From: Mytilus galloprovincialis
Lineage: Eukaryota; Mollusca; Bivalvia; Mytilida; Mytilidae
DNA: 64,000 nt
Direction of reading: 5' to 3'
Assembly (NCBI RefSeq): GCF_965363235.1
Contig: NC_134841.1
Coordinates: 62,889,078-62,953,077 of the forward strand
A program made the position numbers and the translations under genes. Position 1 is the first letter of the stretch; each line of letters starts with the position of its first letter. Below the pieces are notes generated by a model. That model worked only from the letters and a program-made list of their open reading frames with translations, had not been told where the DNA came from and did not search any database. Shown piece by piece: positions 20,178 through 64,000 of the stretch.

Positions 20178-23100
20178 GTAAGTCCTGTCTGATGTTTTAA
20201 ATTATAATTAAGATTATTATAATTATTATTACTCCTATTTCTTTTAATTATTTTGTATTAATGATCAGAAAATTTGTTGTTTTAAAAAAACAAGAAAGCA
20301 AACGAAAACAAATACAAAACAAAGGCAAATGTGTTTACAGAATTAATCTCAAGTAAAATACAAAACACAAATCAACAAAATACAGAAAATAAATAAAAAA
20401 GTGCAAAAACTAAGGTATTGATGATGTATTTGTAAATTCATATAAATGGATTTATATTTCAATTGGACCTTCAATGAATATGCAATATCTTAGAGGGTTG
20501 ATTCTTCACTTTGTTTTTGTCTGGTTCAACAACATTTGCTATCCACCTTTTAAGCATTCTTGATTAAGTTATATTCAGTTAACTTCAAAATGAATGAAGC
20601 ACTATTTAGAAATTAATCGGTCCCTTTTTTAATTTCAAACACTTTGTTCACCGAAGATTTCGCTTATCTTTATGTGATGACTACTTAGCAATCATTATAA
20701 TACAGAAAAATAAGCAATTGCTACAGTAACCTAAACATTACAAAATTTCGTTTATAGATATTTCAAGATAGAAAACAGTGATATTTGTAATAGAGATATG
20801 CCACCTAAACAAACTTCAAGCAATACATAATTATGTATATATATTTTTTTCAAAATAACATATTAACGTTGTTCAAACTATAGGTTTAGTTATCGGACTT
20901 TTCATAGTTTCATTGGTTTCGCAGTAAATAAAGATTAATTCACAATTCTATTACAAATTTTGCAGGAAATCCGTTTGTTTTACCATTCTAATCTTAAAAT
21001 TATCCTATGGAAACATACTGAATGAGACACATGGCATGCTGGACGCAATGACTGTTGGTCCTGTGAGACACTTCTTACAAAAAACTACGACATTTGAACC
21101 AATTGAAGTACCATCTCTTTCTATAATCAGGCAACTTAAGATAGAGTCGGAAAATGATCACAAACACAAATTGAACGACAATTTAGAGGCTAAAGAAAGA
21201 GGTAAGTCCTTATATATAAAAAGTGCGTTTAAGTCATTTTAACAAAACAGATATATTAACTCCACAGCATAGTTATTCTGAACTCAGCCTTTGGTACTTA
21301 CGATCGTGTCTATAAAAAAAATGATAACAACAAGTTATAAATGTCAAAAGTCCGAAGCACTTTACTGGATTTAGCGCATAGTGATGGCAGTGAATCAAAA
21401 GCACATAATAAACATATGCATAGCCGAAAAGCTATTAAGTCAGGTGTTTGTAACAATAATTTACTTAAAACCTTTTCTTTATTCTTTCTCAGACACAAAT
21501 ATTGAGTTTGAACAGTAGCAATACAATTAAAAATATGACGTCGCATATCTTTCGATGACAATGATCGTAAATGGTAGTGCTATCCATAAAAACGTCTTAG
21601 TCTTTTGAACAATTTGATTATTAATGGTATCATCTTAACATTGTAGAAACATCTTTGAATGTTGTATTTATCGATACAAAATTTTATTTTTAGGCATCGA
21701 CACCCCCGATGGTAATCTAACTTCAATGTTTGGACCACATCTTATCACAAATATGGAATCAGTTTTGATACATGAACAAGGGTTTATTTATGAAGACATT
21801 GTGTATCGTGCGCTAGAATACGCCACAGAAGATTTCTCATTCACAACAAGTCACCAAACATCGGCATTTACGACTTCAACTGAGATGGATTCAACAAGTA
21901 TGTTGACAGACACAACGGAAACTACAACTGACATGGGTCCAACAAGTATGTTGACAGACACAACAGAAATATCAACAACGCCAGGAACCACCGTTAGACA
22001 AACAATGCAATTAAAAAAGCGACGAAAGAAGCGAAGTATCAAAAAGATATTGTAAGTGTCAAACCTATATCAAAATACAAATAATATTTATTTTCACTAA
22101 CTTCAAAGTGTGAATTTTCTACTTACGGAAAAGATTACCTTAGCTGTATTTGGCAAATTTCTCTTATCCTCAACGCTCTTCAACTTCGTACTATATTTGG
22201 CATTTTTAACTTTTTAGTTAACCAGGCCAAAAGGGCCAAGTGAGCTTTTTTCATCACTTGGCGTCCGTCGTCGTCGTCCGTCGTCGTCTGTCAACTTTTA
22301 CAAAAATCTTCTCCTCGGAAACTACTGGGCCAAATTTAACCAAACTTGGCCAAAATCATCATTGGGGTATCTAGTTTAAATATTGTGTCCGGTGACCCGG
22401 CCGGCCAATCAAGATGGCCGACATGGCTAAAAATAGAACATAGGGATAAAATGTAGATTGCAGCTTTCAACTCTGAAACCAAAGCATTTAGAGCAAATCT
22501 GACATGGGGTAAAATTGTTTATCAGGTCAATTTCTATCTGCCCTGAAATTGTCAGATGAATCAGAGAACCCGTTGTTGGGTTGCTGCCCCTAAATTGGTA
22601 ATTTTAAGGAAATTTTTACGTTTTTGGTTATTATCTTAAATATTATTATATATAGAGATAAACTGTAAACAACAATAATGTTCAGCAAAGTAAGATCTAC
22701 AAATAAGTCAACTTGACCAAAATGGTCAGTTGACCATTGAAGAGTCATTGCCCTTATAGTCAATTTTTAACATTTTTTTGTAAATTTTTAAAAAAATTTA
22801 ACCTTTTACAAAAATCTTCTCCTCTGAAGATTCTAAGACAAATTTAACCAAACTTGTCCACAATCATCATTAGGGTATGTTGTTTAAAAAATATGTACGA
22901 TGACCCGGCCTGTGAACCAAGATGGCCGACATGGGTAAAAATAGTACATACGGTAAAATGCAGTTTTTGGCATATAAAAGCAAAGCATTCAGAGCAAATC
23001 TGACATGGAGTAAAATTGTTTATCAGGTCATGATTTATCTGCGCTGAAATTTTCAGACCAATCGGGCAACTTGTTTTGGAATGCTGCCCCTGAATTGGTA

Positions 23101-26100
23101 ATTTCAAGAATTTTTTGCAGCTTTTGGTTATTATTATAGATAGAGATAAACTATAAATTGCAATAATATACAGCAAAGTAAGAGCTACAAATAAGTCAAC
23201 TTGACCAAAGTGGTCAATTGAAACCCTTAAGAGTTTTTGTCCTTTGTAGTCAATTTTTTACAATTTTCATAAATTTTGTAAATTTTTGTAAATTTTTACA
23301 AAACATTTTCCACTGTCACTTCTAGGCCGATTTCATTATAGATACAGATAATTGTAAGCAGCAAGATTGTTCAATAAAGTAAGATCTACAAACACATCAC
23401 CAACACCAAAGCACAATTTGTCATGAATCCATCTGTGTCCTTTGTTTAATATGCAGAAAGACCACGGTGAACGACACAGGCTCTTTAGAGCCCCAAGTTT
23501 TATTCGAGCTTCACCGATGAGTCCTCTGTAGACCAAACGTGCGTCTGGCGCAAATACAAAATTCTAATCCTGGTATATCTGATGAGTTTATTTATCGCAA
23601 TGTCTTTAGCATAATATGTACCCGGACTTTTCTTTCTATGTAGTAGCTTCAGGTTCTGAATGAGAAAATAATAAGAATAGGACATTGAGTCCAGAGTTAA
23701 AAAATAAGTCATGAAACATTTTTTGTTTGCCTGTTTATTGTGTCTTTATTCTTTTTGTTAGCATTTTTTTGTACTCGGTGTCGATCTGATGAGTAAAACC
23801 GTTTTCAAAATAGTTAATTTCTCTAATTTGAATATGAAATATTTAAGGATTTTTCTTTATACCAAACCTTCATCATTTTCTCATATTTCATTATGAGATA
23901 AAATTGATACTGTTTTGATCAATATTAATATAAGAATATGTAGCTTAATTTCTTAAAATATTTTTTGAATTGTTGGAAAATAAATCTTCGTACATTTGCA
24001 AAAAACAAATATTCAATTATACCAATAAAACATTCTATTTTTTATAGAGCTAAATGATAATTTCAAACAGGGGACTTTTTGTAGAAAAAAATTTGACCAT
24101 AGAAAAATCATTCTGTGAACTTTTCTAAACGACATTGAATTCATAACAGTGGTTGGATTAGTACCTAGGGAAAAACCTGAAGCCTTTAATTCTGGAATTC
24201 TACGGTTGCTGTTTAACATATTGTTTGTGGGTAATTATTTTGTATATAAATTTCCGTTTGAATTGTTTCACATCATGTCATGTTGTGATCTTTTGTATCT
24301 GACCAACCGGTATGACTTTTTTTATTTGTTGAAGGTCATACAGATACCTCAAGTCATATCGTTGGTGGACAGTTGGCAAAATATCACATTTTATTTATAA
24401 AAGTACCCTTTCTCAAGTACTAATACACTAAATTTGTACTACTGAACAAAATGATTTCATGTCAGCAACTTTTTCTATTCAAAGTCATTTGACGGATTTG
24501 ACGAATAAATTTGATTTTTTAAAAATTATTTCAATTTCGTTTTAATAATTTACGCAAAGATTTTTCTAACAAATCGCCAAATAGAGTTGTCTACAAAAGG
24601 AAAATACGTCCTTTCTCGTTTTTTTCAATAAACTTTATTGTAGGTCAGAAACAGACAGAAAACAAATAGACCAGTTCATCTCAAACCTCCCAGACGCTAG
24701 CCTTTTAGATCTTCCATGCCCATTCAATACTACAGTATGTAATGAAACTGCAAAATACAGGACTATTGATGGATCCTGCAATAACTTGGAACATCCGTAT
24801 TGGGGGAAATCATTTACTCCATTTGACAGATTTATAAAAGCCGAGTATCAGGATGGTAAGTAATATCTTAAATTTCCTGTATCATCACGATGGGAAGCTT
24901 TAAGCTTCATACGATATTCATGCCATTTTTTAAAATCATTACCTAAAAAAAATCGGTTCTGATTAGTTGTCTTACGATGTGCCTATAGTATATTGGCTTG
25001 AATTATGACACTCACTGGAAAGAGAATATATCAAATACGGAAAATTAGGAATGAAATAACAGTACGGGTATTCAAGACTCAATCAACAATTTCTGTTGAT
25101 ATTGACGTAAAATATGATACGGCGAACCATTAGGAACATTTTAAGAAAGGTAAAACCTTTCACTTTTATAGCTTTGAAATAAAGCAATCTTTGCTTTATC
25201 TTAAATTTTATTGGGATACATTACTAAAGGAGAGTAATGATGATGCATTTTTCAGACGCATATACACGAAGTTAAAAGGAACCAACACTAAAGAGAGAAA
25301 ACTGAATGGGCTTTTTGTCAAAATAACTTTCAAATGTTTTAAGAGACACCTTAACTTAATTATTTAAAAACAGTTTCCTCCCTTGAAATAATATTAAAGA
25401 CAAATACTAGAGCATGTTGTCTAGTAATACACAAAAGCAAAACCCCGCAACTTCAGTAAACAAATCTAATACATTGTTTCAACTTCTTAATTGTTTATTT
25501 TAATATGTCTTGTATCTGTTTAGATATTAATAATAATAAAACAAGTTAAACCCTTTCAAAAGGCACGGAGTTCTTCGCATTATCACCAGTTGCGTCAACA
25601 TTAACAGTAATTGTTTATCAGGTTTTGAATACAAGTACGGTGAATTTATTTCATATTCAGCATTTAATATCTTCTCCTGTCCGGGACATGTGACTATGTT
25701 CACATATAGCTGTCAAATCATGGAATTATATGCGTTTACAATACAAGTTAGAGGTTAAGCTAGCTATAAAACCATATTTAATCCATCATTTTTTTCTTAT
25801 AAAGTAATGCCAGTACCAATTCAGGATATAACAGTTGTTTTTCCATTCATTAGATGTGTTTGAGCTTTTGAGTTGCCATTTTTAAATAAGACTTTCCGTT
25901 TTGTATTCTCCTTGGCGTTCGATATTTTTGTTATTTTACTTTTTGCTAACTCTTTGTCACATGAATGCCAAGATAATTGTAGACACACAAAAAGAAACAT
26001 ATCAGAACCGATATTTGTTAAGTAATGATTTTAAGAAGGCGTTTGAATTTCATGCAACTCATAGATTCAAACTGTAATAAGAAGTAAATACGACCATCCA

Positions 26101-29100
26101 GAATTTTTAAACAAAACCACAAACAAACCCAAACTGATTTTGGTTAATGTTTGAAACATTTAAAATATGTAATTTGAGTACATAGATGTTTCCCTTTTAA
26201 GTAAAATAAGTGAAAAAATTAATGGTAGTACTAAAATGATAAAAAGGTGTATAAGGTGTACTTCATTGAGTCAATTACCCTACAAAATAAAACCAAGTAT
26301 ACTTTGCTATCTGGTTATAAATACGAACACTATAAAAAAAAACTAACGATACCTATTGCATTGCCTCAGATGCGCATTAAGACAAATAGTGTGTCTTCAG
26401 TAATACAAGAGTCCAGAATGATTGAAAGTCTAAAGTGTAGTACAGTCCCTGACATAATAAGCAGTCTGGGTAAAGCATGACTTGGTGCAACGTCAAAATA
26501 TATGTTTCGACAGGATTGAGTACTATGATAAATTTGAAAATAAGACCAATGTTAGTACAAATAAGGTCAATGTCAACATTTGTTTTACAAATATAAAAAT
26601 ATGAAAATCATTATCACTATTTTATCAATTTTATTCTCAAAGAACATAAAGGAAACCCACATTGCAATGACTTTGTCGACCAAGTTAACAAACAATATAT
26701 TTAATAAGATCGTATCCATGAATGATTTACGTTTAACATGTCTAGATACCTAATGACAGCAACGACTTACATGAGTACTAATATAGAATTATATCAACTC
26801 TTATAACAAACAGAACAATGCATACCCGGACAGGGGATAGTATTTTTTATATGCAGTAGATGTGAAAACCAGGTTTACATAGCACTTTCGATACATAGAC
26901 ATTTATAGGAATCATACAGAAAAAAACATTTAAAATATATAAGAATATGATAGCCAATTCAAAAATATGCATCATGATCAATTTTTCTTTATAGCATCAC
27001 ACTCACCAAGAATATTTAGCAAACTGACCGGAACTGCATTAGAGGGGCCACGTGAGATTAGTAACTTTGTACACACCACAAGTACACTTGCCGATATTGA
27101 TCCAGCAATTAGCTTCTATATGATGACATTTGGGCAGTTCCTAGATCACGATATTACAAAAACAGCTTTAGCAAAAGGTAGTAACATTGTAATTTGCCGT
27201 AACAATTTATGAAACGATCTCTCAGTATTACACAAGAAAAATTACATGATGATTTACGACTAAAAGACCGATTTTACTTTTCCTATATTAAATTTTCCTT
27301 TTTTGAACGGATATGTTCCTCAAGCACCGTCTTACGGTGTTTATGCTTGGTTGATATGCTCGTGTCTGTAGTGATTTTTGGATTTTATTGAGAGTTATCT
27401 GTGTATTACTCATAAATAATTAAATCAGGGATTTCGTTACCAAAATTACTTAGATAACTCTTAACTAAATTCTTCAATAGATACAAAGATGGTGTCTGTA
27501 ATTTTGGATGTACCTGTAGGAAATTTATTTCAAACTGATAAAACAAATTCTGATTTTACGGTAATGTTGTAAACCGAGCCAGAAATTTACATATGATCTG
27601 GTTAAACTCATCAATTCTTCTTCCAAAAGGTTGCCTATTCAGCACTGTAATCAAATATTTGGATATTGTATTTATTTGTATACATATTGATTTTGTTATC
27701 AGTAAATTAAAAGCATCACCAAATATCGCACATATTAATTTCCACGGTACTACAATCTATCGATATGATTAGTTTGGCTTTGCACAAGATCATGTTTTCC
27801 TCGGACATCATTTTCTTCAGCTTATATGTTTCATATGCATCGTCCTGTTTTTATCTTCAATGTAAGAAGTGTCCTAACTATAAACTTGTTTCTTTTAAAG
27901 TCTTTAAGATTGGCACTTAGAAATTCTCTCTGGAAGATTATGAATCATTTCCAACGAAGAAGTTAAAAAATTTGTATATTTCTAAAAAAAACTACGATGT
28001 ATATGTCGCTGAATATTGTTAACAAAAATGTAAGTGAAAGTGGTGATAATGCAACAAACGTGTCTATTTTTCAAATTTTACTGCGCGAGGTCAAAGTCCT
28101 TTTTCCTTTACATATAGACATAAATTGAAAGAAGTATGCCGCTATGTTTTCATGGTGTTTGGTGATCTTTTGAACATTTAAATACCAAGTTACTGGCTTA
28201 TCGTTAAAACAATTATCTAATAAGAATTTAACTGACAAATAGGGGTTTGAAAATATTTTCTTGCACTTATGATCGATTATTTTTCTTTAACATTGAATAT
28301 GCAGTTTTAGATAAAACACATAAAAATATAAGGAACTTCATTTTTGTCTACGCATACTGAATTCGTTTTGATGTCTATGTAATAAAACAAAAATCAAATA
28401 AGTATTGAAAAATGCATATAATTTAAGTTTGATATATAAGCCAATTACATTAGAGAATTAATGAGTTTGTTTGGTCACTCGTTGAATGATCATCTATATT
28501 TCTATTCTTAGAAAACCATTTTTAATTTATATTTTTTTTATAGCTTATTCATTTCATTATTTCATAATATAGGTAAAAGAGGGTGTGGTATGAGTACCAA
28601 TGAGATAACTCTCCAACCAAGTCACACCGAACAAAAGGCTATAAAGGGCCCCAAGATGACTAGGATAAAACCATTCGGACGGGAAAACAAACGGTCTAAT
28701 CTCTATAAAAACTGAGAAACGATTAACATTTATGAACCACATCAAGAAATGATAACCACTAAACATTAGGTTCCAGAAGCAAACAAAGAAGTCTTGTTGT
28801 CTGTTCTGTTGTCGGATTGTTGTCCCTTTGACACATTCTAGATTTCCATTCTCAATTTTAAATGCAGCGGGTAAAAACGTTTTGATAGTTACCAATCTTC
28901 ACCCTTACCTGAAACAACAGTGTAATATAAACATAGAAAGACACACTATTTAATATCAACTGAAGTGGATTAACTTAATCAAAAGACATATGAACACAAG
29001 CGAACACACTCTGATTGAATAAATTTGATACATGAAACAATGTAAATTCAAAATCAATAAAATGTGGGATATATCCTATTTATCTTTGAGATAAACTCAT

Positions 29101-32100: not shown

Positions 32101-35100
32101 GTTACATCGAGCAAAACAGTCATTGAAGACTAAATAATGAAAAAGTGATTACAGAGAAAATTCCTACTTAGAAGTACTATCTTAAAACTAGTAGTGACTG
32201 ACTATACATGTCTATATTGCAGGTTATCGGGAGCAGATTAATGAACTGACACATTATATCGATGGTTCTGGTGTATATGGTTCTACTGTTGAAGAATTAA
32301 ATGCATTAAAAGACCCTACTGATAATGGTAAAGTATAATTAACTTTAAAACATACAGATTTATTTTTAAAGCATTTTTAAGCGGCGTATATAATGCATTT
32401 GAGAAACAGAGATTTCTTAGAATAGTGTTACCCTAGCGAACAGTGTACGAACCGCACAAAAAATGACATAGTACACACGACAAGACACATAGTAGACCTT
32501 TTATAATTAAATTACGGTAGTAAATATTCTGTAAATCATTCCGTTTCCGTTTGTAAATAACTGTCTGTCAAACTTCATTATACACCTTTGATTATGTTTT
32601 ATCTTGTCCTGTTGGTATTTTTTTACTAACTTGAGTGCCATCATTATTAGTATTTTGTTTTCAACCAGGGATTATAGTAACAACAAGTCCCCTTGAGGAA
32701 GTATTCAGATTTTTCTAAATCTTTTATCCATGCTGAAATAAATTTTAAGATGACATGTGTGTCTTTCGCCATCTTGGATTGTAAATAACTGAGAACGTAA
32801 GTTAGCAAAATTTGATGCAGGAATGCCGATTACTAATATGAATTTTCATTTTAAATAACACATGTATAAGATTATAACTTATGAATATTAATATTTTTAC
32901 AGGTTTAGATTTTTGCTTCATTTTTAATGTTTAAACATTACGCACAATGTTGGTGACGTTTTCAGATTTCACGTACCCGACACTTAAAAAGGCCTTAAAC
33001 AAGAAAAAATATAGGAAAGATCAAGTGTTATTATGTGTAAAAAACATTTTAAGCACTACAAAAATTAAGTTACAGATAATTTATCGGTTTTTATTCAGTT
33101 TTGTCAATCTGTTTACCTAATCCTAACAAGAAAAATCTTGTATTTTTCGTGTAGACGGGTAACATCATAATGATGTTCTTTGAGTATTCCTTCTTTTTTC
33201 GGGTACTTATAGGTATGTAAAATATAATATTGCTACACCATTGGGAAGAGGAGCGTAAGGGCTTTTGGGTGACATGTGTCTAAAAGTTAAATAACGCAAT
33301 TTTTGGACCGAGTAGGCGTTGAAAGAAGTCATTTTTGATTGTAGACACCAAGAAAAGATATCACTCCCTTAAGGCACAACAGTTTAGAATGCATTTATAG
33401 CGAGAATATTATATTCTCAAATTGACGATAGCGCATATCCTTTTGTAAAACAAGTTTGGAAAATTCTATGAAAGCAAAGAAATCTAATGTAAATGAGCGA
33501 ATCCCGTAAAAACATCGACATCATTTCCAAAAACCTAGCCTAAAGTACACTGTCACAACAACGTTTTAAAAACTTTTTATAAAAAGAAATTATCAACATT
33601 GATTAAAAATGTGCAAAACTTTTCATTTAGTCAGAAAATATAACATGCCTCCTATTTTATTACATCTGAACGGCATTTATTCGGACAATTATCTCATTTA
33701 TATAGCATTAAACAAAAAAATATTGAGCATAAGAACCTTAGAGGTCGCCCGTCACAAAAAAAAAATAACCAATGTTTTACGTTAGTAATTCCGGTGTTGG
33801 TTATAGAAAACAACAAAAAATAATGTGTTTTGCATTTTAGATCGGAGGATAAAGCCAACATGATAAATTCCAAATAAAAAAAAAATATTCGATGCTTTAA
33901 ATAATATTTTTATCGATTAGTATCGAATATCGATGCATTGAAAGAGTGTCTACCAAAATGTCACCATGAAAGCGTTTTCAATTTTTCTTAGAATTATTAA
34001 GGACAAGTTGTTACTAATCTTCAAAAAAGAGTAAAAACAACATAAATGTTTCGAAAAACATCTCTATAAAGTCAAATTCCTAAGTAAGGTAAGTAGGGGA
34101 CAGAGTTTGGTGTTTTCTCACATAATTTGTTCATTCGTTCAACTCGTTAAATATTGCTGTTTGATTTTTTAAAAAAACATAATGAGCAAAAATACTTTAC
34201 CGATGTTTACTAGGTATGTACCGTAAGACGATACATATACGTGTACTTATGTTAATTAAGAAACGTGAAATAAAATATATGGCAACGTTTGGAATGAATC
34301 ATTTATGGTGATTTTTTTTGTAATTTGAATGTCACTTGTTGCAGATATATAAAAAAAATCTCCGAATTTGATTCATTGCTGTTGTGCCGAAGTTTGCGTT
34401 AATTCCTAAAACGATCATTATTCTAATTGATACGAATATTATTCAAGTCATATTTAAATTTCCTCTTTGGTCTCCGGAAGATTTGTGTAAATATGTTACG
34501 TTTGTTATCCCTTTTTCGTCGGTGATCTTCTATCAGAATTTCTCAGTAAAGCTAGCATTAGAAAGGATAAGAAATAATATCAACGGGGTATAGAAATTTG
34601 GTTATCTGTGTTTTCTTCCGACCGGCAGTACAACCCTTACCAACGAGGGGGAGTCACTATATCTTTGTGGAATTTGTAAATATCCTCCTTTCCCATTGCT
34701 TTTCCAATTTTCTGGCTCTAGATCCAAGTCGACCAATATTGAATGACCTATCTACAGTACTTGTTTTTGATTTTTCTCGTTCAAAATATGCGTGAAAAAT
34801 TTTCTTTTCAGCAAAAAATAATCAATCAATCTAGTTAATAAGTAACTGTTTGCAATACAACGTTAATTGATGCGTGCATCTTCATAAGTTTATTTTTTGA
34901 GGATGCTGTTTAGAATTCACTTCAACATGTATAGACCATTTCAATAATTACAGTCTATGTTTGAGGATGCAATAGTGTATCTGATATGAAACATTTTTGT
35001 GATTACAGGAATGATGTTAGTTTCGACAGATGATAAGCTGCCTCTTGATAACTCTGATACTCTTAGTTGTACAACGGATGCAGATAAAACATGTTTTAGA

Positions 35101-38100
35101 GCAGGTAGGTTTTAATCAGGGATCTACAGATTTTAATTTTCATTGGAGTCCGGTATTTTTGTTGTTTTACATTTTAGTATTTTAACGAAAAATACGTTTG
35201 TATGCATGTCCCAAGGACATCAGAACTGATCTTAAATTTCGCAACACATGTGTACAATTTAAGTACCATTCTGTACAAGAATTCGGCAATGAGTTGAAAA
35301 TCATTTTTTTTTTCAATTTGGTCATTATTGCATTCAAACATATTCAATACACATAGAAAACAACTTAAAAGCTTTATAAAGTTATACTGAAGCATCTGTC
35401 ACTTAGATTAAAAAAAATATTAAAATTTTACCGCCATTTTTCCATAGTGCTTTTCAACAAAATTTAGCCTATCTATATCTTTAAAAGGCAAACTTTACAA
35501 ACACTTTGACATTATTTATACCCATATTATTAGACGCGAGGAAGTACTTAAAATTGTGAAGGATCAGAGAAATACGAAAAATGGCCTCTTGTAACCAGGA
35601 ATCAATAGTTTTAAGGAATTATAAAAAATTGTATGTTTTGTATATAAATGAGTTTTGGGGATCACCTAAGAATCATAGAAAGAATTTAGTACGTAGGAGA
35701 TGGTTGGACTGGAATCGTGAGATTTGGTTCAAACCCAATCATTTCTTTAAAAGAGCATGCAGGACGATGTCAGTCAATCGACAATGTATTCAATAGGAAT
35801 AGTCAAAATAAAGCTTGTTTTCAAAAGTATAAACGGATATGGATTTTTTTTGTAGACATATACCTCAAAGTTCTGTGCATTTTTTTATTCGACTTTCGAA
35901 TGTTTTCAAAACAATTGGATGAGTACGAAAGACATTGCGTCTATATAGTATATGTTTGCTTTCGAAGATTTTAACATAAGGTTATATGTCGTACATGTAC
36001 AGTCAATCACTATGTTCGAACAGTATTTTTAATTAAAGCTTTTTTTATATTTAAATAATTCAGTTTTCACAACGTATAATATACTCTCCAGTGCATTATA
36101 TCCTATAGTCGGATATGTTTGTTGTTGCGTGAGTTTGTATTTTGTTTTGTTCCCTATTTTACTTTTTCTTTTTTGGTGATATTCCTTTTCCATTTATTAC
36201 GGTGTGCATATTCAGTTTCATTTTAATCATGAATACCCTTCATCGATCCTGTCGATACTATGTACTGATATACTAGTATTGCACAAGGTCATTTAAGGTA
36301 CTGATACCGAATTTCGAGGAATATTTAAAAATGAAAGACCTAATCAAATGGCAAAATCAAATGCTCAAGTACAATTAATTTTCTCTGACTACTAAATACT
36401 TCATTAAACGTAATTCCGTTGTATGTTTACTCATTAATTATTTACTCTAGGAACATATGTTTTATCTTTTAATGAAATGTAATTTAAACTACAGCTTTCA
36501 GTTACTACACATACCCATTAATCGGTACTTTGAGTTTTTAAATTATTTGTTTAGTGCCTTGTGACATCTTGATACATAAAGAGAATGCAAATCTGTTTTT
36601 ACAGTTTGTGTTTCACTACCTCCCAATGCTATGGTAAGGTCGAACGCTAACAATTATGTTTAACTACGGTCTATTCTTATTAAGTTTGTTCTAAGTTGTA
36701 ATTCAGCTGTTGTCGGTCGATAAGTGATGCAGGTCACATTTGTTTTCATGTATTTTCTATGTTTCATTTTCAGCATATGAAAAGAAGTCCATCGAAATGG
36801 GAATTGAAATTAAGTCCTAAGATTCATTATTTGTTATCAATGCTCTGTATAGCGGGAATTTCTCGCTACATTGAAGACCTGTTGGTGACCTTCTGCTGTT
36901 GTTTTTTTCTATGGTCGGGTTGTTGTCTCTTTGGCACATTCCCCATTTCCATTCTCAATTTTATCAAGGCAATAAAAACAAATAATTATAAAACTACAAG
37001 TTTAATTTTGCATTCGGCATTCTGCGTGCAATTTTATTTTGAATTTATAGAATAAAATGTATAATGCAAAGGTAAATTTTCTTTTATTTTCTAATCTAAA
37101 GTTATCATTTCTGTATTGATATTTTTGGTGGAGTATTTCTGGTTAAATCCAAGAACATAGAACCTGATCGCGTACCAGAAAACAATTATATTGAGAAAAA
37201 TAAAATACTGTTTCCTGTAGCTTTTAAAAATATGTTTTCTCTACGATACAGGTGATGTGAGGGCCAATACACAACCCGCTCTCAGTTCCCTACACACCAT
37301 TTGGGTCAGAGAACACAATCGAATCGCCCAGCATTTCAAAAATAGTCCAGAATGTTATAACTGGACTGGACAACAAATTTTCGAGGAAACTAGACGCTAC
37401 GTTGCGGCTGAAATTCAACATATAACCTATAATGAATTTTTACCCAAACTGTTAAGTGAAGAAATCCGTGAACAATTTGGTTTGGTACCATTATGTGATG
37501 GACATTTCACTGACTATGACCCAACCGTGCGGCCAATGATCCGGAATTCATTTTCAACGGCAGCATATAGAATGGGACATAGTTTAATAAAGGATAACTT
37601 TACCTTTCCCAGCAATGATTTTGATCTTCACGTGCATTTGAACAAACCTGATTTATTATACGAACCGAGTGGAATAGAACGTTGTATGCGAGGTATGTAT
37701 GAAACGAAAGCACAATCAATTGACGAGAAGATGACGAGAGAAGTCACTTGGAAACTGTTTGAAACTATAGCAGGAAATGGCGGGGATTTGGCAGCTTTCA
37801 ACATTCAGCGAGGTCGAGATCATGGACTTCCGTCATATACTACGTGGCTACATTGGTGCACAAATAAAACAGTACAAAATGAGAACTTTAACGCTGGTGA
37901 AGAAGGGGGTCTTTTTTATCACAGTGCGGCAGCCGCGGCAAAGCTGGGCAGAGCTTATGCGTAAGTAACCCAAACATGTGTAGTTATAAAAGTATGAAAA
38001 CTAAAAAAACAAAACAAAAAACAAGCCTTATAAGGGTATCAATTGTAAAGTTTTGTATTTAAATAGAAAAAAATATGTCGAACACACACAATTTGTACAA

Positions 38101-39877
38101 TAAGTTATAAAAAGTGAAAACAAAAACGTTATTACTCTCATGCGTCATAATCGATTTACCTTCACCAAGAACGTTTAAAGCCGAATATTTGAAATCCATG
38201 AAAGGAAAATGACCTAAATAGTTGAAGAACTATATATCAAAGAGGACCTGAAAAATAGACATTTTTTCCTAATATCAATTTTGCCTGATAGAGTAACAAA
38301 GTTTTATAAGATGCTAAACATTATACCTTAGTGTAAGCTCCAATCAAATAACTGCAGACTTAGCTCTGTTGGCTTTGGATTTTGAAGATTTTGTAGTTTG
38401 TCATACCAAAGTTATGGGTAATTTAAGTTTTTTTTTCAAAATACTTTTCACCTTTGAGCATCTTCATGCAAGCTTTTCTACAAAGCCATTTCATTTGACT
38501 GTCTACCACTTTTTCATTGATATCATATCTTCTTTTTGTTGTTAACAATGAACAACCAACATATGCATATACATATATATATATATGACCTCATCTTATA
38601 GGTACACTTGTGATATAGAATTGTTTCCTGGAGGTATATCGGAAGAACCCTTGCCAGGCAGCAGATTAGGACCAACATTTACATGTATTCTAGCTTTACA
38701 GTTTAGAGCCCTTAAATATGGCGATAGATTCTTCTATGAGGGGAATACTCCACTAAATCCACATCCATTTACACCACAAGAACTTGAAGGTTTCCGTCCA
38801 ATAACAATGGCAAAGATAATATGTGCAAATACAAATATTGAACAGATACCACGAGATGTGTTTTTAGAACCTTCAGAAAGGTTAGTTCGTCTATCGTGTT
38901 TGTGCTTACAAATAACATACAAGACGGCCTCCCAAATCAATCATAAAACTGAACAAACAAACAGACAAACATACAAAGAAAAAATACGCACACAGTACAG
39001 CTCAAGTAATTTTGATCTCGTTATGACGTTCCTTAAATTTGAAATTATCAAGTATTACTATTCAAGCAATGATCATTCTCTTTTTTTTCGGTATAAAAAT
39101 CAATCTTTTTGCAAACATATTGATAAGTCTGAGTCGTTCTTTTAAACTAGGCTTCCAAATTTGGGATCAATCACAAGCATATAGCAAATTAGAGAGTAAA
39201 ATTACAAAAAACCCCGAATTTCCAGAAAGCTCAAACACATTAAACGAATTGATAACAATTGTCATACTCCAGACTTGGTTCAGACATTTTCTGATGTAAA
39301 AAAAGTTTAATCTGCTTTTATAGCTAGCTAAATATCTCACTAGTATGACAGTCGCATAAAATTTAATTATGTTGATAACAATGTTAAAAAAACCAGGCAT
39401 AATAAGAAAAAAGTAAACAAACGTGGTACAGCAGTCACCTTGGCGTTATAATTTTAATCACTATAAACACAACCAAATATGCCAACAACAAAAACAAACA
39501 CGACACACGTTAATGCATAAATTTACTATTAATAACACAATGACAGATGTATAAGAAAGGAGCAACGTCAAATAGATATTATTTAGTAAATTTCTTTATT
39601 TAGAAATCAGTAACTTTTCATATATATTTTCAGTAATCCGTTAGTGAATTGCTCGGATCTTCCAGATATCTGTTTCCCTAAAAATGGTGGATGGAGCGAT
39701 TGGAAAGATAGTTGTTGTAGTAACTGTTGTACCAGACAACAATACAGATCATGTGATAATCCTCCACCCAATGAATGTGGGAAACCATGTGAAGGATACG
39801 ATTTCAGATACAAAAGCACGTGCCACTATGGCGGCGGCTGTTGTCACTACGGTGGTGATCACCACGACGGCCATTAG
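20167..39877 (+). CDS. Secreted animal heme peroxidase with C-terminal TSP1-like module (gene A), complete, 12 exons
   Basis: Exons: 20167-20177, 20966-21201, 21694-22051, 24644-24855, 26995-27177, 29167-29206, 30486-30619, 32223-32327, 35009-35104, 37252-37960, 38602-38880, 39634-39877. All introns are GT-AG and phases agree; the joined CDS is 2607 nt (868 residues). Order: signal peptide (1-19), propeptide, Ser/Thr-rich linker (about 137-185), basic site KKRRKKR|S (cleavage after R196), peroxidase domain (about 205-785), TSP1-like module (806-850), His/Gly/Cys tail. Seen by alignment to the family: distal Gln320, Asp323, His324 in GQFLDHD; calcium loop T401-Y403-D405-S407; distal Arg462; proximal His568 (YRMGHSLI); Asn642 ([10 protein letters not shown]). 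Such enzymes use hydrogen peroxide to oxidise halides or phenols outside the cell. The Glu that ester-links heme in mammalian enzymes is Thr465 here. The closest family type is peroxidasin/peroxinectin-like, but there are no Ig or LRR domains. Confidence 0.92.
20966..21201 (+). CDS. Gene A exon 2: signal peptide and propeptide
   Basis: Residues 4-83. 236 nt, the same length as in gene B. Encodes the hydrophobic core of the signal peptide and a charged propeptide with the shared FGP/VGPVRH and VPSL-II-LKI motifs. I know no domain here. Confidence 0.85.
21694..22051 (+). CDS. Gene A exon 3: propeptide, Ser/Thr linker, dibasic site
   Basis: Residues 83-202. [13 protein letters not shown] is shared with gene B. 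The mucin-like linker contains an internal duplication (TSMLTDTTE twice, 54 nt apart). The exon ends in [13 protein letters not shown], a furin-type site. It is 78 nt longer than the gene B exon, and this is where the paralogues differ most. Confidence 0.85.
22118..23592 (+). repeat. Hammerhead-type repeat split by a 1.29 kb insertion
   Basis: The left half, 22118-22213 (agattaccttagctgtattt ... catttttaactttt), and right half, 23499-23592 (attcgagcttcaccgatgag ... gtgcgtctggcg), read as one unit when the intervening 22214-23498 is removed. The ribozyme core is decayed (CCGAUGA, CAAA). Lies in intron 3 of gene A. Confidence 0.7.
22214..23498. repeat. 1.29 kb dispersed repeat, 'gctcacctgg' family, copy 2
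   Basis: Same modules as 12151-13438, with module starts near 22280, 22802 and 23296, and the same terminal hairpin (ggctctttagagcc). Inserted in a hammerhead-type repeat within intron 3, so younger than its host. More diverged than copy 1. Confidence 0.75.
24644..24855 (+). CDS. Gene A exon 4: start of peroxidase domain
   Basis: Residues 202-273. Holds [17 protein letters not shown], the diagnostic N-terminal signature of animal heme peroxidases. 212 nt, as in gene B. Confidence 0.9.
26995..27177 (+). CDS. Gene A exon 5: distal heme site
   Basis: Residues 273-334. [10 protein letters not shown] and [14 protein letters not shown]: distal Gln320, heme-linking Asp323, distal His324, Ca-binding Asp325. 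The usual Trp before GQ is Phe. 183 nt against 180 in gene B. Confidence 0.9.
28560..28870. repeat. Dispersed repeat, 'ggtgtggtatgagtgcc' family
   Basis: In intron 5 of gene A. Starts agggtgtggtatgagtacca, contains ctataaagggccccaagatg, and ends tttccattctcaattt. Other pieces: 31795-31955 and 36850-36965 (inverted), 44395-44525, 53150-53290, 54585-54735, 62755-62875. Confidence 0.6.
29167..29206 (+). CDS. Gene A exon 6 (40 nt)
   Basis: Residues 334-347, [14 protein letters not shown], with vicinal cysteines. Same length and phases as gene B 58655-58694. Confidence 0.8.
29380..30300 (+). repeat. Degenerate tandem repeat, about five units of 165-175 bp
   Basis: In intron 6. Each unit carries a version of ccacaagtagtaggtaaatg, tatttggtatgcagttgta, cacatctcatttccatg and catggtcaattgactttga. 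Unit phases fall near 29467, 29632, 29807, 29970 and 30131. Confidence 0.65.
30486..30619 (+). CDS. Gene A exon 7
   Basis: Residues 347-392: [25 protein letters not shown]. Matches the family segment with two conserved Cys and the FxRS motif. One extra Cys (VAACDLGC) is Ser in gene B. Confidence 0.88.
31181..31678. repeat. MITE of the 'actgtaaattcag' family split by another MITE
   Basis: Left end at 31181 (cactgtaaattcagaaac), right end near 31677 (tttctgaatttacagt). The middle, 31276-31588, is an 'actgatcgggcgg' family copy with its own inverted ends (atacatatataact / agttatatatgtat). Intron 7 of gene A. Confidence 0.6.
31276..31588. repeat. MITE-like element, 'actgatcgggcgg' family, copy 2
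   Basis: Matches 5356-5641 over its length, including tctcaactgatcgggcgg and cgcccagtcaagtgaga. Nested in the MITE above. Confidence 0.6.
31795..31955 (-). repeat. Dispersed repeat, 'ggtgtggtatgagtgcc' family, inverted copy
   Basis: Contains gagccctttatagcttgttg, tgtgagccaatgctccgtgt and ggagagttgtctcattagca, the complement of the family 5' part. Confidence 0.6.
32223..32327 (+). CDS. Gene A exon 8: calcium loop
   Basis: Residues 392-427: [15 protein letters not shown]. By family alignment T401, Y403, D405 and S407 bind calcium. Differs from gene B by only about six bases in 105. Confidence 0.9.
32328..35008 (+). other. Intron 8 of gene A, nothing recognised
   Basis: 2.7 kb of AT-rich sequence with no match to the repeat families seen elsewhere in the window. 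Open frames at 34384 and 34598 lack splice or protein support. Confidence 0.4.
35009..35104 (+). CDS. Gene A exon 9
   Basis: Residues 427-459: [15 protein letters not shown] ... CFRAG. Leads into the GDVR catalytic Arg motif across the splice site. 96 nt against 93 in gene B. Confidence 0.87.
35105..37251 (+). other. Intron 9 of gene A with repeat fragments
   Basis: Holds a fragment of the 'ctcaaacacatcaaacgaa' repeat (about 36290-36375) and an inverted tail of the 'tgagtgcc' repeat (about 36760-36985). The open frames at 35581 and 35717 show no recognisable domain. Confidence 0.45.
37252..37960 (+). CDS. Gene A exon 10: catalytic core
   Basis: Residues 459-695. [20 protein letters not shown] then EHNR; proximal His568; Asn642 in [12 protein letters not shown]. 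709 nt, the same as gene B, about 84-85 percent identical in protein by eye. Confidence 0.93.
38602..38880 (+). CDS. Gene A exon 11: end of peroxidase domain
   Basis: Residues 695-788: [28 protein letters not shown] and the terminal IICANT ... DVFLEPS, all typical for the domain end. 279 nt, as in gene B. Confidence 0.92.
39130..39420. repeat. Dispersed repeat, 'ctcaaacacatcaaacgaa' family, in intron 11
   Basis: Shares gctcaaacacattaaacgaa, attgtcatactccagacttg, ttttatagctagctaaat and ctagtatgacagtcgcat with 46730-47080. Further pieces: 43020-43190 (inverted) and 60325-60520. Confidence 0.6.
39634..39877 (+). CDS. Gene A exon 12: TSP1-like module and His/Gly/Cys tail
   Basis: Residues 788-868, stop [18 protein letters not shown] ... 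[17 protein letters not shown] matches the thrombospondin type 1 pattern (WxxW, CxxC region, RxC, GKPCEG) with doubled cysteines. The protein ends [18 protein letters not shown], a possible metal-binding tail. Confidence 0.85.
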
Positions 39878-55500: not shown

Positions 55501-58500
55501 TTTTCTATGGTGACATTGTGCATCGTGCGATAGAATATGCAAAAGGAGAATACGATCTTTCCACTAGACAACCAGTAACAACGACTACAGCTAGATCTGA
55601 AAAAGAAATGGCAACAACTCCTACGCAAAGTACCATCCCAACAACGGAGGAAAGATTACAACGAGTCAAACGAAGTACAACAGTATTATTGTAAGTGTTA
55701 AAATTATCAAATGACAAACTACCATTTGTGTTTATTTAATGGATTTCTGAATTAGAAACCGACGAATTTAAATCAGTGTTTTACCATCAATATAATTATA
55801 TTTTAATATGTGAAACCTCTAATCTAAAGAATCATCTTGACTGTCATCTTGTCCGTCCGTTCGTCCAACATATGTTTTCGTCACACTTTTCTCAGGTACA
55901 GGTCATTGACTGATTGATTGATTGTTGATTGATTAACGTCGTATCAGAACAAGCAGGCTGTATTTCGGCGAAGGTACTTCATATTTGGTCAGCCAATTGA
56001 CAGGAATGGGTTGTAAAGTGCGAGTTTTATCGTAAATTCATCACTGTAGTACAATGTTTCCCCTGTTTTCCTAGGTGACTAAAAGATTCAGTGCCAAATA
56101 TAAATTTTTTGGAATTAATTCGCTTTAAATAATTTGGAAGAACTTAACAATATTTTCAACACAAAATATATCCTAAATACTTCCAAGCAGTAAGCCTTCT
56201 AAACCCGATATGGGAGTACAAAATTTTAAGCATGGTATTTACAATTAGTTTAGTTGCAACCCTTCGGTCGATGTCACTGCTGGTTGAGTTTTCTCCCCGA
56301 GGGAACCACCAACCCGGAAGTCAGTACGAAATACTAAGAAGTAGATTAACTTCGCTATGTATGGTAAAACCTTTCAGAATTTAGGTCCTTTATGCTTTTC
56401 AACTTCGTAATAGTAACGTTTTTAATTCGAATGTCATTAATGAGTTTTTTTGTAGAAGAAATACACGTCTCGAGTACAAAATTTTAAACCAGGTATCTAT
56501 GATGAGCTTACTTTGTCAGCAATTTGATAGAAATGAGTTGTATTGTGTGGACGCTTTTCTGATCTTTGAAACATCTTCGTCTTGTTTTCTGAAACTTTGA
56601 ATAACGAGGCCTTAGTACGACAACGCATGCAACTACTTGTTAAGGTGGTTAACGGTAACGAATATTACTGTTCATATATACGGTTTTTTTGTGTTGATGT
56701 CTGCGCAAACAATGTTTTAACTTTTAAATTTTTTACTTATTTTTTTTTGCGTCAAAACCTCATTAGCTACAATATACACTGTGACGAACTCCTTAGAACA
56801 CTTGACCAACGAAACAAATTTAAATAAAAACAAAACTTTTTTTTCCATTTGTCCAGTTACGTCTTTTCCTCCAGATATTTGCTAGTGCGGCATTAAGCAA
56901 CCAACAATCAATCAATCCTCCAGATATTTAAATAAAATTTTAACCAAAATTTTGCGTTTCAGTGAGCATAAAAATACGAAAGTGCTTATGCAGGGCATGC
57001 TGTCCTATGAGCTAGAGAGTCATATTCTTCTTGCCTTTTATTTTGATATCTTTTCAATTATTGAAATAAAGAAAATAATTACGGTAACGAACTAAACCAA
57101 AAGAGATCATTTAGCAAAATGCCCCTCTTGTTCTCTACACAGACAGTAGAATGTTTAAACCGGTTCTTTATAGCATAAATCTAATTTCATTTTTGCAGGT
57201 CAGAAACAGACAGGGCACAGATAGATCGGTTCATATCAGAACTCCCAGACCCAAGCTTCATCAAACTTCCTTGTTCTTTCGGTGATATTGAATGTGATGC
57301 ATCTGCGAAATATCGGACTATTGATGGGTCATGTAATAATCTGGACCATCCGCATTGGGGGAAATCGTTCACTCCGTTTGACAGATTCCTAAAACCAGAA
57401 TATGCTGATGGTACACAACATTTTGTATGCTCTTTTTTCCATCAAATAGTTTCTATTTTTTAGAATTCCAATCCTTTTGGAAAAAAATGCTAATTGATGG
57501 TAGTAATGGTGTTGTATTGTTGATTAAAGATACAAAAATTCAAAAGAAAGCAAGCAAAAACTGAAACATCATGAATTATCCGTTTAATTTAGCATATCAT
57601 TTACAACGCAATTATAAAAATAAAATCAGTATCTTTAAATACAAAAAAAAAAAAAAAAAAACCACCAACAAACAAACCAAAAAAAAACTATGTAAGACAA
57701 ATCAATCGACCAACCGGCCTTGCAATTTATTGAAACTATATCGAAGAGCACTAATGAAATGAATCAATGAATTGAGCCTAATACATTTCTGATCACAAAC
57801 AGAACATATCATCATGAACGCATTCATGGCAAGAGGATAATCCTTTTAAAATTCATGTGAAACTACAGTATCCCTTATACATAAGACAGAAAGCTAACAT
57901 GGGTTCCATGTCGTAAAAAAAATATGTAAAAATAAGAATACGACTGCAAATTCAAAAATATAGATCCCGTTCATTTTTTTTTGTAGGAGTACAAGAACCA
58001 AGAAAATTTGGAAAACTGAATGTACCATTAGAGGGTCCACGTGAAATAAGTAACTTTGTTCACACAACAAGTACCATGGCTGACCTTGATCCACCAATAA
58101 GCTCCTATATGATGACATTTGGGCAATTCCTGGACCATGATATAACAAAAACAGCTTTATCAAAAGGTATAACATTATGAATTGTCTAAACAGTAACTTT
58201 AGCTATCATTAAAGCCGATCTGTTTCGTCGACATAAGGCTCATCAGTGGCGTGCAAATCTTAACAGTCAACACCAAAGTCAAAGAGCAATGCACATTTTT
58301 AAAAGATGCAAATAACTGCATGCTATTTTAGGTGTCAATAAACCTCGACAAGGATACATAACTGGTTTCAATTTGCACATTTTAATAACATGTGCTAACT
58401 GTGATATGTACACAGAGGTCATAATTCGGGATTAATCTTTATTTGTTGGGGCGAGCTGAAATGATATGTGGTAAGCATCCATGACTCACAATAAAAAACA

Positions 58501-61500: not shown

Positions 61501-63933
61501 CAACAAGACAATTGGTAAGAATACTTGACAATGAAAATAGTATATGGGAATGGCCATTAAGAAAGATTATAATCAATAACTAATAATTAAAAAGTAAAGG
61601 CAGACAAAGATGATGAAGTTTATATTTAGAAATATTATAGTACATTTTTATTAGAAAACGAAAAATAGCCATAATTTGAAGGGGGAATACATAGAAAAGA
61701 AATTATAGATTAAGTTATAAGGTTTTTTTTAAGGAAATCATCATTTGACTCTGTTGGAAAATCAATTTAAATAATTCATAAAAAATGCATTCCTTATTTA
61801 ACAAGGTCGGTATTATTATATGTTTAAGTCTAGAGGGCATTGCATAATATCAAGCTAGAATATAAAAATAATTTAAACAAAACAAAAACAAATCTCTTTA
61901 GCATTTAAAACTGTTTTACACAGGTGATGTGAGGGCAAATACACAACCCGCCCTCAGTTCCCTTCACACTATCTGGGTCAGAGAACACAACCGAATTGCT
62001 CAGCATTTCAAAAATAGTCCCGAATGTTACAACTGGACTGGACAACAAATTTTCGAGGAAACTAGACGCTACGTAGCGGCTGAAATTCAACACGTCACCT
62101 ATAATGAATTTTTACCCAAACTACTAAGTGAAGAAATCCGTAAACAGTTTGGTTTGGTACCATTATGGGATGGGCATTTCACTGATTATGACTCAACCGT
62201 GCGGCCAATGATCCGAAATTCATTTTCATCGGCAGCATATAGAATGGGACATAGTCTTATAAGGGATAAGTTTGCCTTTCCCAACACTGATTTTGATCTT
62301 CACGTGCATTTGAACAAACCTGATTTATTATACGAACCGAGTGGAATAGAACGTTGTACACGAGGTATGTATGAAAATCCAGGACAAAAAATTGACGAGA
62401 AGATGACGAGAGAAATCACTTGGAAACTGTTTGAAACAGTAGCAGGTGATGGTGGAGATTTGGCGGCTTTCAATATTCAGCGAGGTCGTGATCATGGACT
62501 TCCGCCATATACTACATGGCTACACTGGTGCACAGGAAAAACAGTCGATGCTGACAATTTTACCCCAGGTGTAGAAGGGGGTCTTTTTCATCATGGTGCA
62601 GAGGCCGCGGAAAAAATGAGAAAGGCTTATGCGTAAGTATACCACCGGAAGTAAAAGGCTGATTACGACGGACTCAATGAAATATCCACCGTTGATTACT
62701 TTATTCAAATAACAAAATAATCTTTTTGAACATAACTATTGTGGTCAAGATCAAATCAACAATGAAATTGAGAATGGAATGGGGAAAATGTCAAAGAGAC
62801 AACCTGACCAAAGAGCAGACGACTTCATTATGCCACCAATGGGCCTTCAACGAGCGAGAATAATACTAGTATACAAACACACGCGCAAAGGAAGTTTAAT
62901 AAAGTATACCTTATGAAACTTTTTGTGCAATTGCTATTATCATATTCATAATACTACCTATATGCAAATTCCTATTCTTCAATCCAATTAAACAGAGTTT
63001 GAGACGTTGAGTTATGTTTTTATATAAATGTGTTTCTTTGGTTATAAAAATGCAATTTTTGAAATTGAAATTATTCACCATTGTTTATACACTTGATATC
63101 ATATATTTATATAATTGTTCCCCTCTACAATATTTTATTATCGACTCCTAGGAGTCGATATTAAGAATTGAACGATGGACCGTTAGTGCGTGAATTTGTC
63201 TTGCTACCTGATTGGTAGATATTACGAGACGTGAATAATCAAAGTTTATTGATTGGTTAGGACAATCCAAACCTAGTAAATGACCTTTAATCCCGTAGAG
63301 TATCGGATTTGTCCTTTCTATTTTAGCAATTAGATTTTGCCTGGTCATTAATCATGCATATTCATGATATTGGTACACAGGTCACTTTTATCTATAAATA
63401 GTCGAATCTTCTGGAGTTTCGTAAACAACAACGTTAAATAATATATACTACTTCATAACGTGTGACCTCACGTGTGTGGTAAAATTTGTTGATTGATGCA
63501 CGTGGCTATTCTAGTAAATGAATTAATCTACAAAGCGAGAGCACTTTCCATTTTCCTCAGCTAAGAGTCGACTAGCCCTTTTTGAAAGGCTAATGCTTGT
63601 ATGTGTACATTATAATCAACAACCAGAAATTATGCATAAAGACTTTCTTTGTAGGTATACTTGTGATATAGATTTGTTTCCTGGAGGGATATCAGAAGAA
63701 CCCTTGCCAGGTAGCAGATTAGGGCCAACATTCACATGTATTCTAGCTTTACAGTTTAAAGCCCTTAAATATGGCGATAGATTCTTCTATGAGGGTAATA
63801 CACCACTAAATCCACATCCATTTACACCACAAGAACTTGAAGGTTTCCGTCCAATATCAATGGCAAAGATAATCTGTGAAAATACAGATATAGAACAGAT
63901 ACCACAAGATGTATTTTTAGAACCTTCATTGAG
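49572..63933 (+). CDS. Secreted animal heme peroxidase, tandem paralogue (gene B), 3' partial
   Basis: Exons: 49572-49582, 52262-52497, 55411-55690, 57199-57410, 57987-58166, 58655-58694, 59248-59375, 60192-60296, 60908-61000, 61924-62632, 63655-63933; the last exon is beyond the window. Phases match gene A throughout; six of the eleven lengths are identical for exons 1, 2, 4, 6, 8 and 10, and exon 11 also agrees. About 757 residues are visible. Signal peptide starts [19 protein letters not shown]; furin-type site QRVKR|S after R170; distal Gln293, Asp296, His297; distal Arg432; proximal His538; Asn612. Thr435 replaces the heme-linking Glu, as in gene A. Exon 7 has two usable acceptors (59248 or 59233), both in frame. 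Function as for gene A; whether a TSP1-like end is present is not visible. Confidence 0.9.
51320..51490 (+). repeat. Hammerhead-type repeat, decayed
   Basis: Ribozyme region 51408-51452: stem I GCGUCA/UGGCGU is perfect, but the box is CUGAUAA and GAAA is lost. Intron 1 of gene B. Confidence 0.6.
51555..51860 (-). repeat. Dispersed repeat, 'aaatccgggttacaaact' family, inverted copy
   Basis: Has ggttaaacccaccatctttt, ctgtaccaagtcaggtaaaa, agtttgtaacccggatttgt and ctcaatggatttatgcattt. The 109-codon frame at 51604 runs over this repeat and is not a gene. Confidence 0.6.
52262..52497 (+). CDS. Gene B exon 2: signal peptide and propeptide
   Basis: 236 nt, acceptor tgtttgtag, donor gtaaat. Shares FGPVRH, VPSLDII and LLKI with gene A. 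Confidence 0.87.
53589..55139. mobile_element. 1551-bp element with G-rich TIRs and 6-bp target duplication
   Basis: Ends: gaggggggcaagggg on the left, complement of ccccttgcccacccctc on the right. Target duplication agcggt at 53583-53588 and 55140-55145. Next to both ends are direct repeats of an ataacag-taacag motif. The interior carries a Penelope-like reverse transcriptase fragment (minus strand) and a 'tgagtgcc' repeat copy (54585-54735). No transposase is visible, so it is non-autonomous. The superfamily is not determined. Confidence 0.6.
53755..54360 (-). pseudogene. Broken Penelope-like reverse transcriptase fragment
   Basis: Minus-strand motifs typical of Penelope-like RTs: [43 protein letters not shown], and [20 protein letters not shown]. 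Only the finger/palm part remains and it has several breaks. It lies inside the TIR element above. Penelope-like elements are known to carry hammerhead ribozymes, which may connect it to the ribozyme repeats nearby. Confidence 0.6.
55411..55690 (+). CDS. Gene B exon 3: propeptide, Thr-rich linker, furin-type site
   Basis: 280 nt. [14 protein letters not shown] start; shorter Thr-rich linker without the gene A internal repeat; ends [11 protein letters not shown]. Confidence 0.87.
56250..56525 (+). repeat. Hammerhead-type repeat unit, decayed
   Basis: Body cttcggtcgatgtcactgct, ccccgagggaaccaccaacc, ttcaacttcgtaatag; ribozyme region 56431-56476 with UUAAUGA in place of CUGAUGA. Intron 3 of gene B. 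Confidence 0.6.
57199..57410 (+). CDS. Gene B exon 4: start of peroxidase domain
   Basis: 212 nt. [17 protein letters not shown]. Donor gtacac departs from the gtaagt consensus used by the gene A counterpart. Confidence 0.88.
57987..58166 (+). CDS. Gene B exon 5: distal heme site
   Basis: 180 nt. [14 protein letters not shown], distal Gln/Asp/His intact. The first 14 residues differ from gene A and fit the family better ([10 protein letters not shown]). Confidence 0.9.
58210..58260 (-). repeat. Truncated hammerhead-type repeat
   Basis: Minus strand gccactgatgagccttatgt then cgacgaaac: core boxes present, stem III and the cleavage side missing. Intron 5 of gene B. Confidence 0.5.
58655..58694 (+). 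CDS. Gene B exon 6 (40 nt)
   Basis: [14 protein letters not shown], same phases as gene A. Confidence 0.8.
59248..59375 (+). CDS. Gene B exon 7 (5' edge ambiguous)
   Basis: Starting at 59248 (acceptor cccag|g) gives RNPDCFTF; starting at 59233 gives five extra residues. Both keep frame. The polypyrimidine tract is poor for either, so the edge needs transcript data. Then [17 protein letters not shown]. Confidence 0.75.
59965..60085 (+). repeat. tRNA-derived SINE fragment
   Basis: gggaggtcgtgcatgggttt followed by gaaccccg (B-box-like), then accaaagactttcggaattg and ctgcttcttccgtaaaagta. Intron 7 of gene B. Confidence 0.45.
60192..60296 (+). CDS. Gene B exon 8: calcium loop
   Basis: 105 nt, [15 protein letters not shown] intact, nearly identical to gene A. 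Confidence 0.9.
60325..60520. repeat. Dispersed repeat, 'ctcaaacacatcaaacgaa' family, partial
   Basis: cgaactccacggaaaactga, agctcaaacacatgaaacaa, catggcagtcgaaaaatgtt. Intron 8 of gene B. Confidence 0.5.
60908..61000 (+). CDS. Gene B exon 9
   Basis: 93 nt: [15 protein letters not shown] ... CFKAG. One codon shorter than gene A. Confidence 0.87.
61045..61140 (+). repeat. tRNA-like SINE head
   Basis: gccttagtggccaaatggtc (A-box-like) and ccatagttcgaacttcg (B-box-like) 36 bp apart, followed by a T-rich stretch. It lacks a full tRNA fold. Intron 9 of gene B. Confidence 0.4.
61924..62632 (+). CDS. Gene B exon 10: catalytic core
   Basis: 709 nt. [46 protein letters not shown]. Same length as gene A. 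Confidence 0.93.
62755..62875 (-). repeat. Dispersed repeat, 'tgagtgcc' family, tail
   Basis: aaattgagaatggaatgggg, tcaaagagacaacctgacca, agcagacgacttcattatgc. Intron 10 of gene B. Confidence 0.5.
63139..63575. repeat. Unidentified insert with a 22-bp perfect palindrome
   Basis: A perfect palindrome centred on CTCCTAGGAG spans 63139-63160; agagtcgact recurs near 63564 at the far side. The segment is absent from the matching gene A intron. Inside is tctataaatagtcgaatctt, a TATA-like box next to GAAnnTTC heat-shock-like half-sites. The element type is unknown. Confidence 0.4.
63655..63933 (+). CDS. Gene B exon 11: end of peroxidase domain
   Basis: 279 nt, acceptor ctttgtag, donor gtaagt; protein almost identical to gene A exon 11. 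The last exon is not in the window. Confidence 0.92.
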
Positions 63934-64000
63934 GTAAGTTAGTCTTTACTGTTTGCATCTAAAACAGCATGGAACCCTTAGCCAAAAATAAACAAAAACA

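Follow-up and report, generated by a model that had tools for sequence, protein, structure and literature searches.

Genes A and B, two tandem animal-type heme peroxidase genes of Mytilus galloprovincialis, both code for Thr in the place of the Glu that forms an ester bond to heme, and they represent one of several states in a family that has changed repeatedly at both heme anchors. The heme of the superfamily is described as tied by conserved Asp and Glu esters (PMC4420034), with the Glu bonding the methyl of heme ring A (PMC10679500). Our preferred reading, to which we give a probability of about 0.58, is that A and B are working peroxidases with the heme on a single Asp ester, a shifted redox potential, and poor oxidation of bromide and chloride. 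We infer the working enzyme, the single ester, the redox shift, and the substrate from the residues that the genes code for. The window, meaning the whole stretch of 64,000 nucleotides that was analyzed, corresponds to C4:62889078-62953077 of a 1.38-Gb genome, and positions without a contig name refer to it.

Gene structure and the heme-ester Glu position

The exons and key codons that we assigned to both genes, all on the forward strand, are as follows.

24644..24854 (ends approximate), +, gene A, first peroxidase-domain exon (PF03098 positions 1-33, E 3.8e-11)
27132..27152, +, gene A, distal motif GQFLDHD, with the ester Asp codon at 27144-27146 (PF03098 match of the exon, E 4e-07)
32223..32327 (ends approximate), +, gene A, calcium-loop exon, LTHYIDGS (block conserved between A and B, translation)
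35009..35104, +, gene A, exon preceding the motif exon, ending in CFRAG (translation)
37252..37960, +, gene A, central exon with distal Arg, Thr, proximal His, and Asn (PF03098, E 1.2e-67)
37269..37271, +, gene A, Thr codon ACA in the place of the heme-ester Glu (direct reading, HMMER alignment)
38602..38883 (end approximate), +, gene A, C-terminal peroxidase exon (PF03098 positions 448-530, E 3.5e-25)
58121..58141, +, gene B, distal motif GQFLDHD, with the ester Asp codon at 58133-58135 (direct reading)
61924..62632, +, gene B, central exon (PF03098, E 2.7e-66; splice sites read)
61941..61943, +, gene B, Thr codon ACA in the place of the heme-ester Glu (direct reading, R-A-N-T-Q as in A)
63655..63935 (end approximate), +, gene B, C-terminal peroxidase exon (block conserved between A and B, translation; PF03098 match at C4:62952739-62952993)

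Together, the exons of gene A cover positions 1-33, 42-89, 214-423, and 448-530 of the PF03098 profile, and its central exon is bounded by splice sites that read directly as ag/GTGATG and GC/gtaagt. From 37260 onward, this exon reads AGG GCC AAT ACA CAA, that is, R-A-N-T-Q. In the HMMER alignments DVRANTQP pairs with DTRSSEMP of myeloperoxidase (MPO; 1cxp_C) and with DTRSTETP of eosinophil peroxidase (EPO; 8ogi_B) with zero gaps, so the Thr occupies the ester-Glu position, and the first-pass annotation, which had proposed Thr for Glu in both genes, is confirmed on this point. The residue after the Thr is Gln in both genes, and the Met of the third heme link of MPO is thus also missing. An alignment artifact was ruled out, as the stretch from the distal Arg to the Thr site aligns without a gap. 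Sequencing error was judged unlikely, because the Thr is common to two loci that lie 24.7 kb apart and differ at 33 of 236 residues.

Upstream of the peroxidase domain of gene A, a Thr/Ser-rich stretch (21693-22050) leads into a basic run, KKRRKKRS, that resembles a proprotein convertase site; a Pfam scan of 21693-21943 gave no matches. As for a long peroxidasin, the two upstream exons of A and the one upstream exon of B that were scanned gave no Pfam match at E<=1, and hence neither leucine-rich repeats nor immunoglobulin domains, with no 5' gene end having been found.

Retained residues and selection

The other catalytic residues, including the ester Asp, had been said to remain, and they do. 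Both genes code for GQFLDHD, in agreement with the distal motif X-G-Q-X-X-D-H-D-X given for the superfamily (PMC4420034), and for the proximal RMGHSL (His) and NIQRGRDH (Asn), so that distal Gln-Asp-His-Asp, distal Arg, and proximal His and Asn are all kept. In the calcium loop both genes have LTHYIDGS, compared with LTSFVDAS in chordate enzymes as reported in PMC3533774, and the loop is therefore kept with changes. By the An_peroxidase (PF03098) profile and the fold family, A and B belong to the peroxidase-cyclooxygenase superfamily, with an exception on the ester Glu, as the X-R-X-X-E-X motif called typical of the superfamily in PMC4420034 is replaced by R-A-N-T-Q.

All 33 differences between the central exons of A and B fall in the last 180 residues and none in the first 56, which make up the motif region. 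The exon has a dN of 0.078 and a dS of 0.317 (NG86), for a dN/dS of about 0.24, and is under purifying selection. To judge from their residues, both genes look catalytic.

Heme anchors across the mussel paralogs

(i) Glu position. A PF03098 search of the genome gave at least 89 exon matches, with 81 of 309 candidates scored. Beside A and B, we took 46 further loci, selected because their matches extend to the part of the profile that ends with the motif, and 41 of these 48 (39 plus A and B) contain a G(D/E)xR motif and form the readable set. Left out were L047-L050 and L052-L053, which have no GDxR motif, and the DUOX-like L051, which has Glu. We take L051 (GNPRGFE) to be a dual oxidase and L047-L050 are presumably COX-like.

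The ester-Glu column of the 41 genes contains Glu in 21, Val in 8, Gln in 4, Asp in 2, Ile in 2, Thr in 2, His in 1, and Asn in 1. Glu is therefore missing from 20 genes (20 of 42 if L051 is counted), with a non-acidic residue in 18; the Asp found in two of the paralogs might still form an ester. Thr occurs in A and B only, but the idea that this pair is special in losing Glu did not survive the survey, as 18 further paralogs lack it and the nearest kin of A and B have Val or Gln there. The mammalian enzymes are too narrow a yardstick for these two genes. The proximal His was seen in 16 of the 20 genes without Glu, the exon ending before it in the other 4 (5 exons in the 41-gene table stop short of the His), so every gene without Glu in which this can be read retains its proximal ligand.

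(ii) Asp position. Distal and motif exons were paired by strand and distance, with a largest gap of about 30 kb (L090 with L018). The Asp position could be assigned for 25 of the 41 genes (A, B, and 22 others by letters, L046 by pattern match only), the distal exons of the other 16 being outside the count. The combinations at the Asp and Glu positions are as follows.

Asp and Glu: 11 of 25 (L009, L013, L016, L018-L025)
Asp and a non-acidic partner: 8 of 25 (A, B, L015, L017, L029, L044, L045, L046)
Asp and Asp: 1 of 25 (L012)
Thr and Glu: 1 of 25 (L014/L089, C5:29179132-29189344, with GQFLTHD and RHSE)
Glu and His: 1 of 25 (L043)
Neither ester residue: 3 of 25 (L010 and L011, Ser and Gln; L034, Ile and Val)

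L014 would be a natural Glu-only type like DdPoxA, the peroxinectin A of Dictyostelium. The neighbors L010/L100 and L011/L098 (C14:52.73-52.78 Mb), which carry Ser at one ester position and Gln at the other but retain the proximal His, are candidate peroxidases without covalent heme.

Three more distal exons, L094, L095 (GLVIFHD), and L104 (GLLVAFD), are outside the 25. L095 lies near L053 (C11:83.87 Mb) and L104 near L052 (C11:84.31 Mb); both pairs lack GDxR and the distal Gln-Asp-His and are possibly non-catalytic paralogs.

Phylogeny and bacterial homologs

Trees were built on about 200 columns with the Glu column masked, from 50 rows and from a 45-row set without short or long-branched rows. 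Both recover a clade of A, B, and L015 (Val), then L010 and L011 (Gln), with supports of 98/98 (50 rows) and 98/99 (45 rows). All five genes of the clade lack Glu, and by parsimony the Glu had probably already been lost in the ancestor that A and B shared with their Val and Gln sister genes. On both trees, parsimony requires a minimum of 7 switches between Glu and non-Glu, and for Asp versus non-Asp at least 3 on the rows used, counts that are blind to gain versus loss and come from trees with several weakly supported deeper forks.

Glu is present at the site in all 18 bacterial loci, or 13 of 13 distinct genes once overlaps are removed, a small sample drawn from a single scan that used the exon of gene A as query, plus additional matches from six of the genomes it hit; Glu is thus probably ancestral. 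The Asp position is less constant in bacteria as well: 9 of the 13 genes have Asp and 2 have Thr (L112/L124/L129 and L115), while a pattern search did not find the motif in L119 and L128.

In the planctomycete domains L112/L124/L129 (G001:C75:10021-11619), L115, and L116 (compare G002:C23:93546-95147), the order is swapped, with the Arg-Glu motif first and the distal GQLLTHD or GQFIDHD about 400 residues later. L112, L124, and L116 have the proximal His and Asn motifs between the two, in one open frame. These domains look like a circularly permuted animal-type peroxidase.

Heme attachment in genes A and B

With a single Asp ester, the distal Asp of A and B would bond the methyl on heme pyrrole ring C, and the ring A methyl would be left free, since Thr, followed by Gln, stands where the Glu would react. 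The heme would be less bent, the Fe(III)/Fe(II) potential more negative, and bromide and chloride poorly oxidized, with H2O2 reduction and the oxidation of phenols, iodide, or thiocyanate retained.

According to PMC5437232, the Glu ester of MPO is only partly formed and is judged less important for activity, so its loss may matter little and a large effect is not assured. A rather unlikely alternative to the single-ester reading goes further and treats the Glu ester as dispensable, its loss reflecting nearly neutral drift at a position where change is tolerated, and A and B behaving as ordinary peroxidases. Seven kinds of non-Glu residue over 20 of the 41 paralogs, the repeated changes on the trees, and the partial Glu ester in crystals of MPO and lactoperoxidase (LPO) (PMC10679500, PMC5377774) are all consistent with drift, but the motif region of A and B has stayed identical while the rest of the exon diverged, and Glu is kept in all 13 bacterial genes and in the MPO and EPO chains.

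We regard as still less probable that the Asp alone is unreactive and the heme of A and B is held by no covalent bond at all. L010 and L011, and also L034, have lost both ester residues with the proximal His kept, and because the first two, which have Ser at the Asp position too, belong to the clade of A and B, members of that clade may be able to do without a covalent bond to heme, and A and B would not have to form one. Against this, A, B, and L015 have all retained the Asp, and in the MPO and LPO crystals it is the Asp ester that is fully formed (PMC5377774). In the EPO crystal both esters are fully formed (PMC10679500), but the title of a reference listed in PMC9138014 describes the Asp ester of human EPO as forming only in part in vivo, so the Asp cannot always be counted on as the firm link.

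It is very improbable that A and B, tandem duplicates under purifying selection, are in decay or have lost catalytic function, as the loss of a heme-linking residue would by itself fit decay but nothing else was found that does, and the low dN/dS and the full set of distal and proximal residues speak against it. The heme links known at this place are made by carboxylates or thioethers, we know of no Thr ether link to heme and of no such bond for the Val and Gln that the sister genes carry, and an ether between the Thr and an oxidized ring A methyl, for which the hydroxyl has only its position where the Glu carboxylate would sit, is the least credible explanation of all.

Implications for the family

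The family-wide change at both anchors is a more interesting result than the A and B pair alone, and it can be tested. We speculate, with some reserve, that the working peroxidases of a single mussel genome form a natural series (both esters, Asp only, Glu only, and neither) that arose by repeated independent changes, and that covalent heme could be an evolvable dial, set lower in enzymes whose role shifted from the production of hypohalous acids to the coupling of phenols (DOPA and tyrosine) in byssus or shell. If so, covalent heme attachment would not be a fixed trait of the superfamily, and the natural Asp-only, Glu-only, and neither variants would be ready material on the role of each ester, beside point mutants. 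As a guess, the series may also bear on how peroxidases of mussels came to act on phenolic glue and shell proteins.

Foot transcripts of Mytilisepta virgata are reported as enriched for the peroxidase domain (PMC5549309), and in Limnoperna fortunei the 16 foot proteins listed by name include byssal peroxidase-like ones (PMC5911496). For some members of the family, the coupling of phenols is therefore a reasonable guess at the substrate. The Limnoperna proteins are named for their AN_PEROXIDASE domain, with one table row so marked in PMC5911496, and resemble A and B in that domain assignment. We found no account of the ester residues of bivalve peroxidases in the mollusc and mussel literature covered, most subscription journals being outside its scope.

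Comparison with known systems

The mammalian enzymes MPO, EPO, and LPO share with A and B the domain family, the distal and proximal residues, and a comparable calcium loop. They differ in having two esters, to which MPO adds a sulfonium link through the Met after the Glu, where A and B have Thr-Gln.

Peroxidasins are described in PMC3533774 as keeping the Glu, except for short nematode ones. These have a peroxidase domain but none of the further peroxidasin modules, which were also not seen in the upstream exons of A and B that were scanned, and like A and B they are reported to miss the ester Glu. In addition, however, they are said to have lost the distal Gln and the ester Asp, both kept in A and B, and their activity is given as unclear (PMC3533774).

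The closest characterized case is DdPoxA (PDB 6erc), presented in PMC5787809 as the first characterized one-ester enzyme and called unique in 2017 in this respect among the members studied. It belongs to the same superfamily, is naturally one-ester, and keeps the other catalytic residues. Its E'0 is -0.276 V, versus -0.183 V for LPO, and it oxidizes iodide and thiocyanate fast, bromide poorly, and chloride not at all (PMC5787809). One ester is the natural prediction for A and B, and the suggestion that a one-ester heme would shift spectral and redox properties agrees with DdPoxA, where both are shifted; the pair may also, as was suggested, have different substrates. The two cases are mirror images, DdPoxA keeping the Glu with Ile at the Asp position (PMC5787809) and A and B keeping the Asp with Thr at the Glu position, and since DdPoxA lacks the other ester, its figures may not transfer. 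Within the mussel genome, L014, with Thr and Glu, is a nearer parallel to DdPoxA than A and B are.
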